Program-made: the position numbers and the translations under genes
Notes under the pieces: model-generated
What the model saw: the letters and a program-made list of their open reading frames with translations, nothing else
Database searches by the model: none
Told to the model about the DNA's origin: nothing
In this document: positions 33,005 through 47,798 of the stretch, piece after piece
How the letters are laid out: each line of letters begins with the position of its first letter
Numbering within the stretch: position 1 is the stretch's first letter
DNA from: Candidatus Binataceae bacterium
GTDB taxonomy: Bacteria > Desulfobacterota > Binatia > Binatales > Binataceae
Reading direction: 5' to 3'
Length of the DNA: 64,000 bases
NCBI GenBank assembly: GCA_015478645.1
Contig: JADMIL010000004.1
Coordinates: 1 to 64,000, forward strand

Positions 33005-33703
33005 ATGGCGGCATTAACGAATTCCCGAAACACGCCGGAGTTGGCGGACGGCGGTCGCATGCAGGTGTATCCGGTTGAGGCGAACACGACTGTCTATCTA
33101 GGCAGTATCGTAGCGCTGAACGCGAACGGTAACGCGGTGCCGGCGTCGAGCGACGCTGGCCTCAAGGTGATAGGCCGGGCAGAGATGATGCACGGCGGGG
33201 CACCGGGCCAGGACGCGATGAATAATCCAGGAGCGGCAGGTGCGATATCGGTCGTATGCCGACGGGGAGTGTTCCTGTACGCGGTGAACGACGCAACGAT
33301 CGGTGCGGCCCAGGTGGGACAGCCATCGTTCGCGGTGGACGACAACTCGGTTTCGCTCAGCGACGGCGGGGGCGCGACGGCGGTGATCGCACAATCGACG
33401 GCGTTTCCAGCGTCGGGTTCACCGCAGATTGTGAATGTGAACCACGAGAACATCTCGAAGGTGCGAGTGCATAGCACGTCGGGCGGCGGCACGGTTTACA
33501 CGGAGGGGATTGACTATGTGGCCGACTACCAGGCGGGACTGGTAATGCTGGTGAGTGGCGGCGCGATTGCCGCGGCGGCGACGGTATTCGTTGATTTCAG
33601 CTGGGGCACGCCGACGCGCAGCGTGGCCGGGCGCATTGTCAACCTCGATCCGAGCGGACAGGTGTGGATCGACTTCTGGCATCAGACGGCACCGGCGGTA
33701 TAG
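33005..33703 (+). CDS. head decoration-like protein with an inserted beta module
   Basis: The 232-aa protein has a small capsid-decoration-like core (VEANTTVYLGSIVALNANGNAVPAS, PSFAVDDNSVSLSDG, SVAGRIVNLDPSGQVWIDF) of the kind found between protease and major capsid genes. Residues ~131-200 are an insertion (KVRVHSTSGGGTVYTEGIDYVADY...GGAIAAAATVFVDFSW) that interrupts this core. Its counterparts are in the gp37-like and sheath proteins of this phage. It probably trims the capsid surface; the inserted module may project outward. Confidence 0.75.
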   Translation: MAALTNSRNTPELADGGRMQVYPVEANTTVYLGSIVALNANGNAVPASSDAGLKVIGRAEMMHGGAPGQDAMNNPGAAGAISVVCRRGVFLYAVNDATIGAAQVGQPSFAVDDNSVSLSDGGGATAVIAQSTAFPASGSPQIVNVNHENISKVRVHSTSGGGTVYTEGIDYVADYQAGLVMLVSGGAIAAAATVFVDFSWGTPTRSVAGRIVNLDPSGQVWIDFWHQTAPAV

Positions 33704-33823
33704 GCGGAGTCGAACGAGTCATCCGGCCAGTGCGCAGCGAAGACAGCGCCGCGCCGGCTTCTCAAGGCAAATCAACCTTCACCGGGCGACCGCGCACAGC
33801 GGCGGGCCATTAAAGCAGGCATC

Positions 33824-34780
33824 ATGGAAATCACCGCAGCAAACCTGACGGCACTTTTCACCGGCTTCGACGTAATCTTCCAACGCGGCTTCGAGAAACC
33901 TCCGTCGTACTACGAAAAACTCTCGACGGTCGTGCGCTCGACGTCACGACAGACGACTTATCCGTGGCTAGGGCGGACGACAAAATTTCGCGAGTGGCTG
34001 GGCGAACGGGTAATCCAGGCGCTGGAAGCGCACAGCTACACGATTGTGAACAAGGATTTCGAAGACACGGTGAGTATCAGCCGCAACGATATTGAGGATG
34101 ACACCTACGGCGTATACGAGCCGGTCATCGAGCAACTCGGCTGGGACACAAAGGTGCATCCGGACTCGCTGCTATTCACGATGATCAAGAACGCCGTGAC
34201 GACGCCGGGCAGCGTGCTTGCGTTCGACGGGCAGCCGTTCTTTTCGGCCACGCATCCGGTGGGGCCGCTGGGAGCGGCCAACGATGTTCGCGATTCCCTG
34301 GCTTCGAACATCAATTCGAGCGGCAGCGGGCCGTACTGGTATTTGATCGATGCGTCGCGCGCCGTGCGGCCTTTCATTTTTCAACTCAGGCGCGAATACG
34401 CAATCACCCGCATGAATACCCTGACCGACGAAGCGGTGTTCACGCGGCGCGAATTCCGCTTCGGCGTGGACGGGCGCGCAAACACAGGAGTGGGCTTGTG
34501 GCAACTCGCGTATGCGAGCAATACGGACCTGAGCGTACCGACAAATTACGGGGCCGCGCGGGCGGCGATGCGATCGATTAAGACTGACGCGGGATTACCC
34601 TTTGGCGCCCTGACCAGTCCGCGCGATGTATACCTGGTCGTTCCGCCCGCGCTGGAAGAAGTCGCAGCGCAATTGCTGCATTCGGATTTCATGGCGGGCG
34701 CGGGAGCGAGCGCGAGCGTGCCGACCGGGAATATCTGGAAAAATACCGCGACACTGGTCGTGAGCGAATACCTGTCGTAA
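33824..34780 (+). CDS. major capsid protein (Mu gpT-like)
   Basis: The 318-aa protein is a Mu-type major head subunit. It starts MEITAANLTALFTGFDVIFQRGFEK, continues TYPWLGRTTKFREWLGERVIQALE and DFEDTVSISRNDIEDDTYGVYEP, and has LAFDGQPFFSATHPVG in the centre, all typical of the gpT/DUF2184-like group. It would form the icosahedral shell after scaffold-directed assembly and protease maturation. Its distance from the decoration gene and the strong conservation make this one of the safest calls in the prophage. Confidence 0.9.
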   Translation: MEITAANLTALFTGFDVIFQRGFEKPPSYYEKLSTVVRSTSRQTTYPWLGRTTKFREWLGERVIQALEAHSYTIVNKDFEDTVSISRNDIEDDTYGVYEPVIEQLGWDTKVHPDSLLFTMIKNAVTTPGSVLAFDGQPFFSATHPVGPLGAANDVRDSLASNINSSGSGPYWYLIDASRAVRPFIFQLRREYAITRMNTLTDEAVFTRREFRFGVDGRANTGVGLWQLAYASNTDLSVPTNYGAARAAMRSIKTDAGLPFGALTSPRDVYLVVPPALEEVAAQLLHSDFMAGAGASASVPTGNIWKNTATLVVSEYLS

Positions 34781-34897
34781 AAGAAGGACGCGCGTTCGCT
34801 CCCGCGTGCGGCACCTATCAGCCGCATCTCCGCGCTCGCTGCGCGCAAGCCGACCCAACAGGGCGGAACCAACAAGTCACAAGCGGCACCGAAGACG

Positions 34898-35356
34898 ATG
34901 GCATACGCATTACCAAGCGACATGGCGGCGCGATACCCAAATCGGGATCTTGTTCAACTGACTAATGAGGATCCCACACAGACAACGGTCAACGCCACGG
35001 TGCTGCAGCAGGCGCTCGATGATGCGTCGGCAGAGCTCGACGGGTATCTCGAAAGCCGCTTCTCACTGCCACTGAACGACCCGCCGGTGGTGCTGAACCG
35101 GCTGGCCTGCGATATCGCGATGTACCGGCTACAGGCGCTGCGTCCGCTGCACGACCTGGCGGACGCGCGCAAGCGATACGAAGACGCGGTCGAGCTGCTG
35201 GTGCGGGTGACGCGCGGCGAAGTGACACTGGGCCTCGCCGCGGACAATCTGGAACCGCCGTTGGCGCAGAGCGCGGTGGTGACACAAGCGGGAGGCGATC
35301 CGAGCGGCGTGCTACCGGCGCGGGTTTTCGATCGGGGTACGCTGAAGAGCTTCTGA
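34898..35356 (+). CDS. gp36-like head-tail connector protein (DUF1320)
   Basis: The 152-aa protein begins MAYALPSDMAARYPNRDLVQLTNEDPTQTTVNATVLQQALDDASAELDGYLESRFSLPL, the DUF1320 pattern. ALRPLHDLADARKRYEDAVELLVRVTRGEVTLGL follows. In Mu this gene lies between major capsid and gp37 and is thought to form part of the neck. Charge pattern and size agree with the family. Confidence 0.85.
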   Translation: MAYALPSDMAARYPNRDLVQLTNEDPTQTTVNATVLQQALDDASAELDGYLESRFSLPLNDPPVVLNRLACDIAMYRLQALRPLHDLADARKRYEDAVELLVRVTRGEVTLGLAADNLEPPLAQSAVVTQAGGDPSGVLPARVFDRGTLKSF

Positions 35357-35402
35357 CTATTATAGACGTGCCAGCATCCTGGTCGGGTAAAGGAGAATAG
35401 TA

Positions 35403-35675
35403 ATGCGTGTGACTTTCATCTGCGTGCGAGCCGAACGGCGCAACGAATGGCATCCTGGTTATCTGGCGCATTCCGCGCGGCTGGTGCCGGTAGTCGATGG
35501 AGCACCGCCAGCGCGCGAATACTTTGTCGAGCCGCCAGTGGGCGTGATCGAACTGAGCGGCCTCGCGGCCGAACATTTCACGGTTGGGCGGACGTACGTG
35601 GTGCACTTCGACGAAGTAGGGCTTGACGAAAGCCGCGCTTCCCGCCGCAATGGTCCGCCGGCCGGGCGCGAGTAG
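35403..35675 (+). CDS. unknown small phage protein
   Basis: The 90-aa protein (MRVTFICVRAERRNEWHPGYLAHSARLVPVV) has no family that I recognise. It is rich in beta-prone segments (EYFVEPPVGVIELSG, GRTYVVHFDEVGLDE). It is preceded by AAGGAG at good spacing, and the next gene starts ten bases after it. Its place between gp36 and gp37 suggests a neck or head-completion role. Confidence 0.65.
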   Translation: MRVTFICVRAERRNEWHPGYLAHSARLVPVVDGAPPAREYFVEPPVGVIELSGLAAEHFTVGRTYVVHFDEVGLDESRASRRNGPPAGRE

Positions 35676-35684
35676 GAGGTATCG

Positions 35685-36524
35685 ATGGGCGCCGTAATCC
35701 TGGACAGTCCGTGGGCAGGGCAGAGCTACTCGCCGCCGACACCACTGGATATACGGACGATCGAGTCCGCGATCGTCGCCCAGTTGATCGCGCAGATCAA
35801 TGGCATCGAAGTCGCGCATTTTCCGGACAAGCCGGAGTCATACCGAATGATGCATCGCGTCGGAGCGGCGCTTGTCCGCTACGACGGGGCGGAATACGGC
35901 CGGCTGATCGATACTGCGGCGGTGGTGCAGGAGCGCACTTTGAGATTCGAGATCACGCTGATGATGCGCGACCTGGGCTGGAACTATGGCGGCGCGCCGG
36001 ACGGTCCGAGTCCGGGAGCTTACGCTATGATCGAGAACGTGCGCGCAGCGCTGACCGGGTACCGCGTTCCGGGATGCGCCAAGTGTTATCCGGTGCGCGA
36101 ACGCTTCGTCGAACGGGATAAGCAAGGCGGCGCGTGGATATACGCGATCGTCTTCGCACTAAAGACGGCGGCGGTTGAAGCGTCGAGCACGGATAATTAT
36201 CCGACCCTGGTGCTGGCGACTACTCAGGAACAGGGGGGCGTGACGAGCGTGAGCGTTAACGCGGCGGTCTATACGTTCAACTCGTCGGGAGCGATCCAAC
36301 TGCCCAACGGGAATGTAACGGCCGTTGCATTGAGCAATATCACAAGCGGCGCACCATACGCGTTGGGAACCGACTACACAGTCGACTCCGTCAACGGGGT
36401 ACTCGACCAAGTTGCTAGCGGAACGCTTCCGCCGGGCGCAACGATCAACGTCGCATACAGCTACGCCGAGATCGTCACAGCAAGCGCCGGTGGCAGGAGT
36501 GCTCCGTTGGCACCGCGAAACTGA
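35685..36524 (+). CDS. gp37-like tail-terminator/neck protein (DUF1834) with extra C-terminal module
   Basis: Residues 1-165 match DUF1834 (Mu gp37): IESAIVAQLIAQINGIEVAHFP, RVGAALVRYDGAEYG, LRFEITLMMRDLGW, AYAMIENVRAALTGY. Residues ~170-279 are an addition not present in Mu (YTFNSSGAIQLPNGNVTAVAL, YALGTDYTVDSVNGVLDQVASG, TINVAYSYAEIV). This is the same module inserted in the decoration protein and sheath. The N-terminal part would act at the head-tail joining end of the tail. Confidence 0.8.
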   Translation: MGAVILDSPWAGQSYSPPTPLDIRTIESAIVAQLIAQINGIEVAHFPDKPESYRMMHRVGAALVRYDGAEYGRLIDTAAVVQERTLRFEITLMMRDLGWNYGGAPDGPSPGAYAMIENVRAALTGYRVPGCAKCYPVRERFVERDKQGGAWIYAIVFALKTAAVEASSTDNYPTLVLATTQEQGGVTSVSVNAAVYTFNSSGAIQLPNGNVTAVALSNITSGAPYALGTDYTVDSVNGVLDQVASGTLPPGATINVAYSYAEIVTASAGGRSAPLAPRN

Positions 36525-36738
36525 TTACTCGGACGAAGGTGTGACGCAGTATCGTCGACGCTGACTGCACTCAGCGCACCGCACAATAGACAGAAGCTTG
36601 GCGGGAAGACGCTCATAACCGCACAGTTTAACACTCGAGTAAATGAGTAAAGTCACCGCTAGCACCGGCGTCAACATCTATATGCATCGTCACGCGCAAC
36701 AGACCACCGTTCCGCGGTGCGAATCAGAGGTAAACTAA

Positions 36739-38484
36739 ATGCCCGCATCGTTTTTGCATGGTGTCGAAGTAATCGAGGTCACGAGCGGTCCGGCACCGAT
36801 AACCGTGGTCAAGTCGTCAGTCGTCGGTCTGATAGGCAGCGCGCCCCTGTGGTCTTCGAACGCCCCACCGTCGGTGAACTCGCCAACGCTGGTGAGTTCC
36901 GCGCAGCAGGGAGCAGTCTATGGTCCGGCGGTGCAGGGCTACACGATTCCATATGCGCTCAACGCTATCCTTGCACAGGGAGCCGGCCAGGTGATCGTGG
37001 TCAACGTATTTGACCCGACGAGCCACTTCAGCGATATCGTCGCGTCACAAACGTTCAGCGCGGCCGGCGCGATCAATTTGGGCCACATGGGCATCTCCAA
37101 TCTTTCGGTGTTGCCGACTAACACGACCGCGGTGAGCGCGGAATCACATACCTTTGGCGGAACGCCGGCAACGATCGAGCTTGCGCACGGAAATGTGCAA
37201 GCTTCGTCGATGGTAGTGACGAGTAATCCGGCGGGAACGACATACGTCCAGGGTACTGACTATTTGGCTGACGCGCGTACGGGACTTATTACCCGGCTTT
37301 CGAGCGGAGCGCTAACGGCAACACAAGCCGTCCTCGTCGGCTACAGTTACTATTCCGGAACGCCGTATAGTGCCAGCACCGCGTACGCCGCCGACCTGGT
37401 CAACGGTGTAGTAACGTTGGTGGCGGGAGGAGCGATCGCGGCCGGAGCAACGGTAATCGCGTCATTCAGCTACGCGGACCCGAGCAAGGTTCAAGACTCG
37501 GACATTATCGGCACGGTCGGCTCCGGTGGCTATACGGGTTTGCAGGCGCTGCTGACGACGTACGGCACAATGGGCTTTTTCGCGAAACTGTTGATCGCGC
37601 CAGGATACTCACAGAACGGGGACGTCGCGACGGCAATGCTGGCGACGGCGGCCAGTATACGGGCGATGGCACTGCTCGACGCTCCGCCGGGAACCGCGGC
37701 GGCGGCGGTGATCGCAAATCGGGGCGTCGCGGGCAATGCGTTCGACACGAGTTCGACCCGGGCGATCCTGTGTTATCCGCAGGAGACGTTTTACGATATT
37801 GGATTGGTGCCCACCGGAGTGACCTTGAACGGAACGACGCCGGTTCGGCTGGCCGCAAATCAAAACTCGATAGCACCCTATTCTCAGTGGGTAGCGGGGG
37901 CGATGGCCGCAAAGGACCTGTCCAAGGGCTATTGGTGGTCGCCATCGAACACCATGGTGAATGGGATTCTTGGTCCGGATGTTACGCTCTATGCATCGAT
38001 CCTCGATGCGTCATCGGATGTGAACAATCTCAATGCGGCGGGAATTGTGACAGCCTTCAACGCTTTCGGCACCGGCCTCAGAGTGTGGGGCAACCGGACG
38101 GCCGGTTTTCCGGACGTGACGACACCCGATAACTTTATCAGCGTGCGCCGGACCATGGATGTAATTGAGGAATCGGTGGAGCTGTCGATGCTGCAGTTTA
38201 TCGACCAGCCTATTAGCAATGCACTGATTACCGCGATCCTGGCAAGCGCAAACGCGTTTATACGAACGCTTATTCAACGCGGCGCACTGGTCGCGGGATC
38301 GGCCAGCTACAATCCAGCGGAGAATCCGGCCAACCAGATTACAGCAGGCCAGTTGGTATTCGATATTGATGTGATGCCGCCGCCGCCGGCAGAGCGACTG
38401 ACCTTCAACGTCTATATCGACTCGACTTTGCTCAGCCAGCTAGGAACAGCGAGTGCGTTGACCAGTACGACGCTCAACGCATAA
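36739..38484 (+). CDS. contractile tail sheath protein (P2 FI / Mu gpL type)
   Basis: The 581-aa protein begins FLHGVEVIEVTSGPAPITVVKSSVVGLIGSAP, the standard sheath N-terminus. The core returns at KLLIAPGYSQNGDVATAMLATAASIRAMALLDAP and ends with NFISVRRTMDVIEESVELSMLQFIDQP and a C-terminal hand-shake region (AERLTFNVYIDSTLLSQLG). Residues ~133-250 are an insertion made of two copies of the GxDY-type beta module (YVQGTDYLADARTGLITRL and YSASTAYAADLVNGVVTLV), presumably on the outer surface. Sheath contraction drives the tail tube through the host envelope. Confidence 0.92.
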   Translation: MPASFLHGVEVIEVTSGPAPITVVKSSVVGLIGSAPLWSSNAPPSVNSPTLVSSAQQGAVYGPAVQGYTIPYALNAILAQGAGQVIVVNVFDPTSHFSDIVASQTFSAAGAINLGHMGISNLSVLPTNTTAVSAESHTFGGTPATIELAHGNVQASSMVVTSNPAGTTYVQGTDYLADARTGLITRLSSGALTATQAVLVGYSYYSGTPYSASTAYAADLVNGVVTLVAGGAIAAGATVIASFSYADPSKVQDSDIIGTVGSGGYTGLQALLTTYGTMGFFAKLLIAPGYSQNGDVATAMLATAASIRAMALLDAPPGTAAAAVIANRGVAGNAFDTSSTRAILCYPQETFYDIGLVPTGVTLNGTTPVRLAANQNSIAPYSQWVAGAMAAKDLSKGYWWSPSNTMVNGILGPDVTLYASILDASSDVNNLNAAGIVTAFNAFGTGLRVWGNRTAGFPDVTTPDNFISVRRTMDVIEESVELSMLQFIDQPISNALITAILASANAFIRTLIQRGALVAGSASYNPAENPANQITAGQLVFDIDVMPPPPAERLTFNVYIDSTLLSQLGTASALTSTTLNA

Positions 38485-39738: not shown

Positions 39739-39778
39739 TGAGCGGACGACGATCATGAATGCGCGAGGAAGCGAGGGT

Positions 39779-40075
39779 ATGAGTAAGCGGTTATACGCAG
39801 GCAACTTGCATTTTGACTTAACCGACACGGCGCTCCAGCAGGTATTTGGGCACGTCGGCGGAGTTGAGAAGGCAGAGGTAATTAAGGACCGGGCGACCGG
39901 CCTGTCGCGCGGTTTCGGCTTCGTCGAAATGATGACGATCGAAGATGGCGAAGCGGCGATCGCGGAACTGGATGGTGCCGACGTAATGGGGCGGGTATTA
40001 CGGGTGGCGCCGGCCAAGCCGCACGAGCCCCCGCGGCGTGGGCGATCAGCCGCGTACGAAACAGGAATAGAATGA
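39779..40075 (+). CDS. RNA-recognition-motif (RRM) protein within the tail operon
   Basis: The ~98-aa protein is a single RRM. RNP2 is RLYAGNLHF and RNP1 is RGFGFVEM, with the expected beta-alpha-beta-beta-alpha-beta spacing (ALQQVFGHVGGVEKAEVIKDRATG between them, then EAAIAELDGADVMGRVLRVAPA). The aromatic residues that stack on RNA are present (Tyr in RNP2, two Phe in RNP1). Bacterial RRM proteins of this size are cold-shock-like host RNA-binding proteins; I know of no standard phage tail RRM protein. I take ATG 39779, since 39755 adds eight residues outside the fold. The tape-measure gene starts inside its stop codon (ATGA), so it is translationally coupled in the tail operon. Confidence 0.85.
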   Translation: MSKRLYAGNLHFDLTDTALQQVFGHVGGVEKAEVIKDRATGLSRGFGFVEMMTIEDGEAAIAELDGADVMGRVLRVAPAKPHEPPRRGRSAAYETGIE

Positions 40076-41346
40076 AGTCGCGGGCCGACATGGTGCATGC
40101 GTCACGCTTTGCAGATCACGTCGTCGTGCGGTCGGCGACGATAGCGGGGCGTATCGGCGGACTAGCGGAGTCCACTCGCAAATTGTCGCTTGAATCGACC
40201 GAGACCGCACACGGGATCCTCGCGGCTGCGCGCAGGAGCCGCAGGGTGCCAATCGGCCGGTCGAGTAATCCCTCGAGCAGCGATAGTTTGATCAGCCGCG
40301 TCGAGGACATCCCGACTTGGCGCCAGGCGCCAGCGCGCATTCGCGATCTTGAATCGAATGTAAATAGCCTTATCAGTGCCGCGGGACTAGCCACAGTCAC
40401 CGAACGAGTCGGTTCCGTGATAGGCGATATCGTGACTCATACGACCCGAGCGTCGCTGGCGATGCCGTCATGGTTATCGATTAATAAGATGGAAAGAGCG
40501 TCTCGCAGGTCATTGAATGCCCAGTCGACCGAACCTCAACAACGCAATCGATTAAACAATACTTTCGTCGACACCCGCAGCAGCTCCGCCGCAATCCATA
40601 CTAACTACCTCGGCTTGAGCGCACCTGACGTTATGTCGCCCGCAGGACCCGCACGGGATCAGCCCGCGGTGTATCCGTCGTCGTCAGGGTTCGATCCGAA
40701 GCGTCCAAATGGATATAACGCTCCCCGCTGGGGCGAGATGGGCTTTATACCTCTGACGGCAGCGAATACCCAAGGAGTTGCGCGCCACCGCAGTTTTTCG
40801 ACGCATCGGAATCGGCTTACTACCCTAGAAGCAGACGCCCGCAATAGAGGCCTTGTGCGCGCCGCGCAACGCTCTGCAAGCGACGCTTTCGACACTACCT
40901 ACACGAGATCAAAGACGTCACCCGCAGCGAATGTCGAGAACGCTGCGCGTCACGCTGCGCGACTTGGCTCGGCTGTTTACGCAAAAGGCGGTGCGCCGCA
41001 CGGAAATGGAGTCTCTTCAGACCGCGAATGGAGAAGCAATCGGCTGCGAAGGAACCGCGTTGAGGCTTGGGACCTCGATAATCGGTTTGCACGAGATTAC
41101 CGAAGGCCGAACGAATATTCGAGCGGCGGCGCGAATGACTATCTGAAGGGAAGAGAACGCAGCGCGTCGGGATACCGTGGCGAGAGCGTTCCGCTAATCG
41201 TGAACTACTCGCCCACGGTGACGCTGTTTGACGCCCCGCCTGGGGAGATGGAGCGACGGTTGGTTGAAGCAATCGGCCGCCATGGCAGCGACCTGGTGCG
41301 CGTGCTGAACCGAGAGATGGAAAAGCGGCGACGCGCGGGATTCTAG
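40072..41346 (+). CDS. tape-measure protein candidate
   Basis: The 424-aa protein sits exactly where the tape measure is expected, after the frameshifted chaperone and before gpU. It is mostly helical and polar with a middle rich in Ser/Thr/Arg/Asn. The last ~50 residues (VPLIVNYSPTVTLFDAPPGEMERRLVEAIGRHGSDLVRVLNREMEKRRRAGF) resemble the C-terminal end of many tape-measure proteins. No peptidase or clear transmembrane segment is visible. At about 0.15 nm per residue it would specify an unusually short contractile tail. The sequence itself gives only moderate support. Confidence 0.55.
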   Translation: MKSRADMVHASRFADHVVVRSATIAGRIGGLAESTRKLSLESTETAHGILAAARRSRRVPIGRSSNPSSSDSLISRVEDIPTWRQAPARIRDLESNVNSLISAAGLATVTERVGSVIGDIVTHTTRASLAMPSWLSINKMERASRRSLNAQSTEPQQRNRLNNTFVDTRSSSAAIHTNYLGLSAPDVMSPAGPARDQPAVYPSSSGFDPKRPNGYNAPRWGEMGFIPLTAANTQGVARHRSFSTHRNRLTTLEADARNRGLVRAAQRSASDAFDTTYTRSKTSPAANVENAARHAARLGSAVYAKGGAPHGNGVSSDREWRSNRLRRNRVEAWDLDNRFARDYRRPNEYSSGGANDYLKGRERSASGYRGESVPLIVNYSPTVTLFDAPPGEMERRLVEAIGRHGSDLVRVLNREMEKRRRAGF

Positions 41347-42139: not shown

Positions 42140-42367
42140 ATGGTCCAAGCACAATTCCTGACACACGTAACAATCCGGGGCGAGCGCTGGGATTCGCTTG
42201 CCTGGAAATACTACGGCGACGCCACCCTGTTTTCACCGATCGTGATGGCTAATCCGCAAATCGCGGTCGAACCGGTCTTCGAGGCAGGCCTGGTGATTGG
42301 TGTTCCGATATTACAGGTGAGCCAGGCGACCACCAGCGACCTGCCTCCGTGGAAACGAACTTCATGA
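42140..42367 (+). CDS. tail protein X (P2 gpX, LysM-like)
   Basis: The 75-aa protein matches gpX: HVTIRGERWDSLAWKYYGDATLFSPIVMANPQI, the LysM-like core, then FEAGLVIGVPILQV. It is a baseplate or tail-completion protein thought to contact peptidoglycan or the tail tip. The next gene begins within its stop codon. Confidence 0.88.
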   Translation: MVQAQFLTHVTIRGERWDSLAWKYYGDATLFSPIVMANPQIAVEPVFEAGLVIGVPILQVSQATTSDLPPWKRTS

Positions 42368-42663
42368 TGAAGCGGCTGCGGAACTTGTGCGTGCGGTTTT
42401 TTCCAACGCGGCCGTTATGCGCGAAATGCGTGTCCGGACGCATGTCGCATCCGGTGTATTGTAAGGGCGAAGCGTGTGCTCATCGTCGGCAGAGAACCGT
42501 GTATTCATTACACGAGCATTTATACCTTCAATGCAGTAGATGTGGATACGTAGTCTGGTACCCGTGCGCTGATCATCGAGACATTGATCGGCATAAACGC
42601 AAGCGGTGTGCCGCTTCGCCGCTACTGCTAATAATCCGGCAGCGCTGTAAGGATGCCCACTAG
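42364..42663 (+). CDS. Cys-rich, putative zinc-binding protein in the tail operon
   Basis: The 99-aa basic protein starts at the ATG overlapping the gpX stop (ATGA) and ends exactly where gpD begins (TAG then ATG). It has CAKCVSG, a Cys pair in YCKGEACAHRR, and CSRCGYVVWYPCADHRDIDRHKRKRC, a zinc-ribbon-like pattern. No family is recognised, and P2 and Mu have nothing between X and D. Tight coupling on both sides argues that it is real and made with the tail proteins. Confidence 0.72.
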   Translation: MMKRLRNLCVRFFPTRPLCAKCVSGRMSHPVYCKGEACAHRRQRTVYSLHEHLYLQCSRCGYVVWYPCADHRDIDRHKRKRCAASPLLLIIRQRCKDAH

Positions 42664-47153: not shown

Positions 47154-47798
47154 ATGCGACCATCAGGGATTGTGACGCTATACAAGGGCGGGCGCCTCGT
47201 CTGGACGGGGCACAACCTTTATGTGAACGCGGGGCTGCCGCCGCTGGCTAATCTGATCGCGGGCGTGACCACGGGACAGTACGTTGCCGCGATGGGCTTC
47301 GGTTCCGGTGCGACCGCGCCGGCGGCGACCGATACAGGTCTGACCGCCTCGCCGACGTACTATAATGCGATCGGATCGCACAGCTTTCCTTCGTCGGGAA
47401 GTGTGCAATTCAATTACTCACTGCTGGCGACCGATTACGGCGCAGCGGGCCTGACAATTCAGGAACTCGGGCTCTTTGCCAATGCCAGCGCGCTGGCGTT
47501 GCCCGCGGCTATCGGGACGGCCAATCCCGCGTGGAACGCTGCGACTGCGTACGTCGTCGGCAACCTGGTGACCGATAGCAACGGCAATCTCCAGCGCTGC
47601 ACGACCCTTGGGACCAGCGGCGGCAGCGCCCCGACGTGGTCAAGTATCGTCGGCGGGAGCACCTCGGATGGCTCCGCGGCATGGACACTGGTGGCGCTGC
47701 ATACCGCGCCGGGACCGATTCTGGCGCACGTCGCGGTGCCGGCCTTCGCATATACCGGAACGGGAAACTATTCAGGGACATGGACGCTTACTTTCTAA
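47154..47798 (+). CDS. tail fibre-related protein with carbohydrate-binding-like module
   Basis: The 214-aa protein follows gpI. The N-terminal part (GIVTLYKGGRLVWTGHNLYVNAGLPPLANLIAGVTTGQYVAAMGFGSGATAP) is a beta domain common in phage tail proteins. Residues ~125-180 (NPAWNAATAYVVGNLVTDSNGNLQRCTTLGTSGGSAPTWSS) resemble the small CBM5/12-like modules inserted in phage structural proteins. The likely role is attachment of the fibre or binding of surface glycan. Confidence 0.65.
   Translation: MRPSGIVTLYKGGRLVWTGHNLYVNAGLPPLANLIAGVTTGQYVAAMGFGSGATAPAATDTGLTASPTYYNAIGSHSFPSSGSVQFNYSLLATDYGAAGLTIQELGLFANASALALPAAIGTANPAWNAATAYVVGNLVTDSNGNLQRCTTLGTSGGSAPTWSSIVGGSTSDGSAAWTLVALHTAPGPILAHVAVPAFAYTGTGNYSGTWTLTF

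Follow-up and report, generated by a model that had tools for sequence, protein, structure and literature searches.

A beta module of ~65–75 residues is common to the decoration protein, the gp37-family protein and the tail sheath protein of one prophage, and in the sheath one complete module lies inside another. Profile comparisons identify the module as a homolog of the mid-protein Ig-like domain (domain 2) of chi-like tail-tube proteins. The explanation that we favor, with about even confidence, is that an Ig-like latch domain is carried by the sheath, gp37 and decoration proteins and would serve as a peripheral brace between subunits. As the module is related to the chi-like subunit latch, bracing of the particle is a more probable role than sugar binding.

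The prophage was found in a stretch of 64,000 nucleotides (hereafter, the window), which belongs to a 3.06 Mb draft genome of a Candidatus Binataceae bacterium, an uncultured soil organism. Pfam matches and gene order indicate a Mu-like contractile prophage: it has genes for the Mu-type portal, protease, gpT capsid, gp36, gp37, sheath, tube FII, hub, baseplate J and P2 I-like proteins, and those from portal to tube are arranged in order as in Mu-like contractile phages. The three module-carrying genes fall within 5 kb. The sheath recurs in related bacterial genomes, namely MAGs of Candidatus Binataceae/Binatus and 'Deltaproteobacteria'.

A search of the whole host genome with the module profile matches five stretches, all of which are inside the prophage locus: 36273–36482 (E = 4e-28), 33416–33619 (E = 2e-23) and 37159–37359 (E = 4e-23), and, more weakly, 37354–37488 (E = 5e-13) and 37051–37131 (E = 0.01). 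The copies also find one another in single-sequence phmmer searches. Pairwise comparison of orthologue profiles made for each position gives probabilities of 96.9–99.9% (E = 2e-10 to 7e-32) and scores of 52–150, whereas 60 column-shuffles for each of five pairs give probabilities of at most 33% and scores of at most 23; the likeness of the modules is therefore far beyond chance. The initial annotation had proposed a single module that interrupts or extends a known core in each of the three virion proteins, and had suggested profile–profile alignment as a check. Profile searches and alignments bear out this homology, and the positions given for the copies hold at residues ~127–206 of the decoration protein, ~195–266 of the gp37 protein and ~97–250 of the sheath. 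The pattern with which the module had been described (Y..G.DY..D...G.......G.I..GA.V.V.FSY) matches no copy when taken literally; a relaxed form matches three of the four copies, and nothing when all ORFs of the window are shuffled 200 times.

The decoration/cement-type virion protein (232 aa; 33005..33703, + strand; PHROG 1731, E = 1e-26 over residues 1–128) is encoded between the protease and major capsid genes, and its predicted model has weak fold matches to the XM1 and Pam3 capsid chains. The module copy (residues ~127–206; 33383..33622, + strand; module profile E = 1.8e-23) is an internal insertion located before the last ~25 core residues. In an alignment of 39 orthologues, filled and empty sites are both seen, and the last ~25 core residues are conserved in proteins with and without the insert. 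Strands of this copy are predicted at residues 126–133, 142–144, 151–156, 171–174, 179–182 and 193–199.

The gp37-family protein (279 aa; 35685..36524, + strand; PF09646, E = 9e-34) is a probable tail terminator; its match to the tail terminator family PF23840 (E = 8e-4) falls short of the family cut-off. Its module copy is a C-terminal extension (residues ~195–266; 36267..36482, + strand; module profile E = 3.7e-28). The gp37 proteins of the cultured relatives Komp_PAO1_1, Bise, PhiKM and RR1-B have 154–184 aa and end without this module.

The tail sheath protein (581 aa; 36739..38484, + strand) matches PF04984 (E = 5e-16), PF17482 (E = 2e-11), PHROG 23 (E = 7e-91) and the pyocin sheath 3j9q (E = 1e-30). 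When related viral loci were searched iteratively, its module parts came out in the order N-half, full module and C-half. The outer N-half (strands 1–3, residues 97–126; 37027..37116, + strand) has the INLGHMG motif and aligns with the N-half of single-module sheaths. It is followed by the complete inner module (residues 129–206; 37123..37356, + strand; module profile E = 3.6e-23) and by the outer C-half (strands 4–6, residues 207–250; 37357..37488, + strand), which matches positions 25–69 only of the profile model (E = 5e-13). In relatives, sheaths of ~514 residues contain a single module that lines up with the outer halves of the ~581-residue sheath, and the inner copy stands out in the alignment as a clean block missing from these single-module sheaths. 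Compared with single-module sheaths, the joined outer halves reach 99.87% with a score of 150, and the inner copy 99.35% with a score of 102. The two sheath modules had been described as a tandem pair. The order N-N-C-C and the alignment of single-module sheaths with the outer halves rule out tandem duplication; sequence order, the architecture of relatives and predicted strands all indicate one module inside the other. In more distant sheaths the module site is empty: those of Rhizobium phage RR1-B and of loci in Bartonella, Celerinatantimonas and other bacteria are without the module, and so is the pyocin sheath.

In the sheath model, strands are predicted at residues 97–105, 111–113 and 119–125 for the outer N-half, from 129–138 to 197–205 for the inner module, and at 216–219, 224–227 and 238–246 for the outer C-half. 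These alignments and models place the inner copy in the strand 3–4 loop of the outer module. Model confidence is near 90 for residues 121–210 and below 50 for most of the core; with the insert alone being confident, the model backs the nested parse, and placement in the tail is not readable from it. The predicted strand order is repeated in the outer halves, the inner copy and the decoration copy, and the structure prediction that had been suggested as a further check gives the same 3+3-strand order in the sheath and decoration models, the two that were made. Two related prophage sheaths (L106, 1026–3206; L117, 6471–8666) have the module and three further N-terminal repeats (~residues 50–215), the likeness of which to CBM5/12 is faint and not significant (E = 0.68); a similar repeat occurs in the window ORF 47154–47798.

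All 26 module representatives match PHROG 807, the chi-like 'major tail protein with Ig-like domain'. The module profile matches the chi-like tubes RHph_X2_30, pCB2051-A, AchV4 and Bhz60 (E = 3e-13 to 4e-10) at the position aligning with domain 2 of YSD1/Chi, and comparison of the single-module-sheath profile with ten chi-like tubes gives 93%. The Chi and YSD1 sequences themselves have no significant match to the module profile; the link is made through relatives in the same alignment, and relatives of the matched tubes can be aligned with YSD1_22 (6XGR) over most of their length. In a PDB profile search with the module, 6xgr was not listed, and fold searches list it weakly for both the decoration and sheath models (E = 0.013 and 0.049); fold-search values are weak overall, the best match for the insert being a phi812 baseplate protein (1.5e-4). 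Domain 2 of YSD1 is inserted in the tube core, comprises two three-stranded sheets with an extended strand 3–4 loop, and locks adjacent subunits in a latch-like manner (PMC7385642). The strand order in the decoration and sheath models agrees with this layout, with 3+3 predicted strands and a long strand 3–4 loop. The module resembles chi-like domain 2 (YSD1_22, PDB 6XGR; Chi gp22; PHROG 807) in profile, equivalent position, predicted strands and insertion into a core. In contrast, the chi-like tube is non-contractile and has one copy, whereas the prophage has copies on the sheath, gp37 and decoration proteins of a contractile phage, one of them nested.

Ig-like add-ons on phage proteins, including sheaths, are already known (PMC9022992; PMC9230969). 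The promiscuous Ig-like domains of phage structural proteins (Fraser et al., 2006, cited in PMC9022992) are likewise add-ons common to unrelated virion proteins and phages, but those described belong to the Big, I-set and FN3 types. The module itself falls in no Pfam family, and none of its 26 members matches Big_1, Big_2, I-set or FN3 at E-values up to 1. Type 2 and 3 multi-domain tail sheaths (Evseev et al., 2022; PMC9230969) similarly combine a conserved core with Ig-like extra domains located away from the tube, but the accessible sections contain neither a nested homologous module nor the same module on a terminator and a decoration protein. The Mu-like phages PhiKM, Komp_PAO1_1 and Bise, and Vibrio phage X29, have the module at the same sheath site; unlike the prophage, they have one copy only in the sheath, and the first three have none on gp37. 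Unrelated phages also have modules of this type: Phrappuccino and Finch in the sheath, RcGingersnap, AXY1 and Cr-LKS3 in the tail tube, and virus Rctr41k in a capsid-protease protein. Within the scope of the searches, the presence of the same chi-type module on the head, neck and tail of one phage lineage, together with its self-insertion, is new. Outside phages, SprA of gliding bacteria has a weak match (E = 0.037), and in another family of the same class, one genome encodes a 748-residue protein with the module (L122, 4010–6253; E = 1e-8), which is non-phage-looking, has no Pfam match and is possibly an outer-membrane protein.

In a tree of the modules, each position (decoration, gp37 and the sheath positions) forms one clade, and module pairs from the same genome are no more alike than pairs from different genomes. 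Concerted evolution within genomes is ruled out by this clustering and by the lack of excess within-genome likeness. When outside modules are included, the decoration and inner copies fall among tail-tube-type modules and the gp37 and outer copies among sheath-type modules, a 96/90 split on only 71 columns. A single origin of all copies in the lineage is neither rejected nor supported (AU p = 0.27), and AU tests reject none of the alternatives, allowing derivation of the inner copy from the decoration or from the sheath.

Nesting changes once on a sheath-core tree built without the insert columns, indicating a single origin. Among phages with known states, 23 have a nested sheath and the decoration module, none has a nested sheath without it, 7 have a single-module sheath with it and 25 have a single-module sheath without it. 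This distribution, which has one independent pair only and some weak forks, suggests that the decoration module preceded nesting. The likely order is sheath and gp37 copies first, decoration copy next, and the nested sheath copy, with its single origin, last. Almost all intact loci examined have the gp37 and sheath copies, and the nested form persists across a clade of 32, while decoration copies are missing from a large clade that retains the others. In 14 nested-type phages, identity is lower in modules than in cores: 0.64–0.68 versus 0.79–0.82 in the sheath, 0.69 versus 0.81 in the decoration protein and 0.48 versus 0.66 in gp37. Such faster divergence is expected for peripheral parts, and it also fits adhesion or a dispensable appendage.

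In the proposed series of events, the module would have entered an ancestral Mu-like sheath where the N-terminal segment meets the subtilisin-like domain; gp37 would have gained a C-terminal copy and the decoration protein an internal one. Last, and once only, the sheath module would have doubled in size when a further module entered its strand 3–4 loop. The modules would most likely be positioned on the outer surface and pack against neighboring subunits, and the sheath rings, neck ring and capsid lattice would be braced while the essential cores are untouched. The neck/sheath contacts offered as one possibility in the initial annotation come close to this latch. The fuller version, in which one latch domain braces the whole virion at the head lattice, neck ring and sheath, and self-insertion into the strand 3–4 loop enlarges the contractile-tail exterior with the core unchanged, is put forward tentatively, at about half the confidence given to the latch itself. 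Against a latch, a fixed connection might hinder sheath contraction, and the decoration copies are outside six-fold rings. No virion structure with the module on a sheath, terminator or decoration protein was found.

The modules could instead be surface adhesins, raising adsorption through weak, many-copy contacts of the head, neck and tail with the host envelope or extracellular polysaccharide. Display in many copies and the faster divergence of modules than cores in all three proteins are consistent with this, one report suggests that extra Ig-like sheath domains assist adhesion (PMC9230969), and the sheaths with three faintly CBM5/12-like repeats look as if the exterior accepts add-ons. However, no carbohydrate-binding family is matched by any of the 26 members at E-values up to 1, the near-invariant residues D36, G44, G52 and L10 look structural, and, of the homologs whose role has been described, the nearest latches subunits together. 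The polysaccharide binding raised in the initial annotation is thus unsupported, and an adhesive role seems rather doubtful, with perhaps one chance in four. Contacts among the modules themselves, joining head, neck and tail by mutual binding of the decoration, terminator and sheath copies, would suit the shared strand order in head and tail models of one virion and the probable location of the gp37 protein at the sheath top; but cultured relatives manage without gp37 modules and the large clade without decoration copies keeps the others, making this the least likely of the alternatives.

Two further explanations concern the origin of the copies. The module could have spread as a mobile domain, selfish or neutral, that exposed insertion sites tolerate and that is functionless in most places. 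This could account for the very wide and patchy spread over unrelated proteins and phages, for gain and loss in the decoration protein, and for insertion into its own kind; it is considered unlikely, as every position has been kept through long divergence. Recent duplication of one module into three genes within the genome, which is compatible with any function, might be suspected from the three carriers inside 5 kb and from the inner sheath copy, whose grouping with decoration or with sheath copies is in neither case rejected. Duplication within the genome had been proposed at the outset, but it is not borne out by the clades per position, by same-genome pairs that are not closer, or by the presence of the module in many unrelated phages; the separate placement of decoration/inner and gp37/outer copies among outside modules, limited to 71 columns, also speaks against it, and its probability is similarly low.

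The homology ties the sheath, terminator and decoration add-ons to a domain whose role is solved for another phage type, which allows brace and adhesin to be tested against each other for Ig-like phage domains using matched protein pairs; filled and empty sites are clean in natural relatives. The ordered series from empty site to one module and to a module inside a module illustrates how contractile sheaths gain extra domains.

The tail operon has several other features. An RNA-recognition-motif protein (39755–40075, + strand; PF00076, E = 2.4e-18), which is unusual for a phage tail operon, is encoded between the tail-assembly chaperone and the probable tape-measure gene; its target is possibly the chaperone/tape-measure mRNA. 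There are 59 matching ORFs in related loci, including that of the window, and the inspected ones are downstream of the sheath. With 424 aa, the presumed tape-measure protein (40072–41346, + strand) is short; it matches no Pfam family and is strongly divergent among relatives. The ORF at 42349–42663 (+ strand) in the tail region encodes 104 residues, is cysteine-rich with zinc-finger-like spacing, and has a match in one related locus only (L069).
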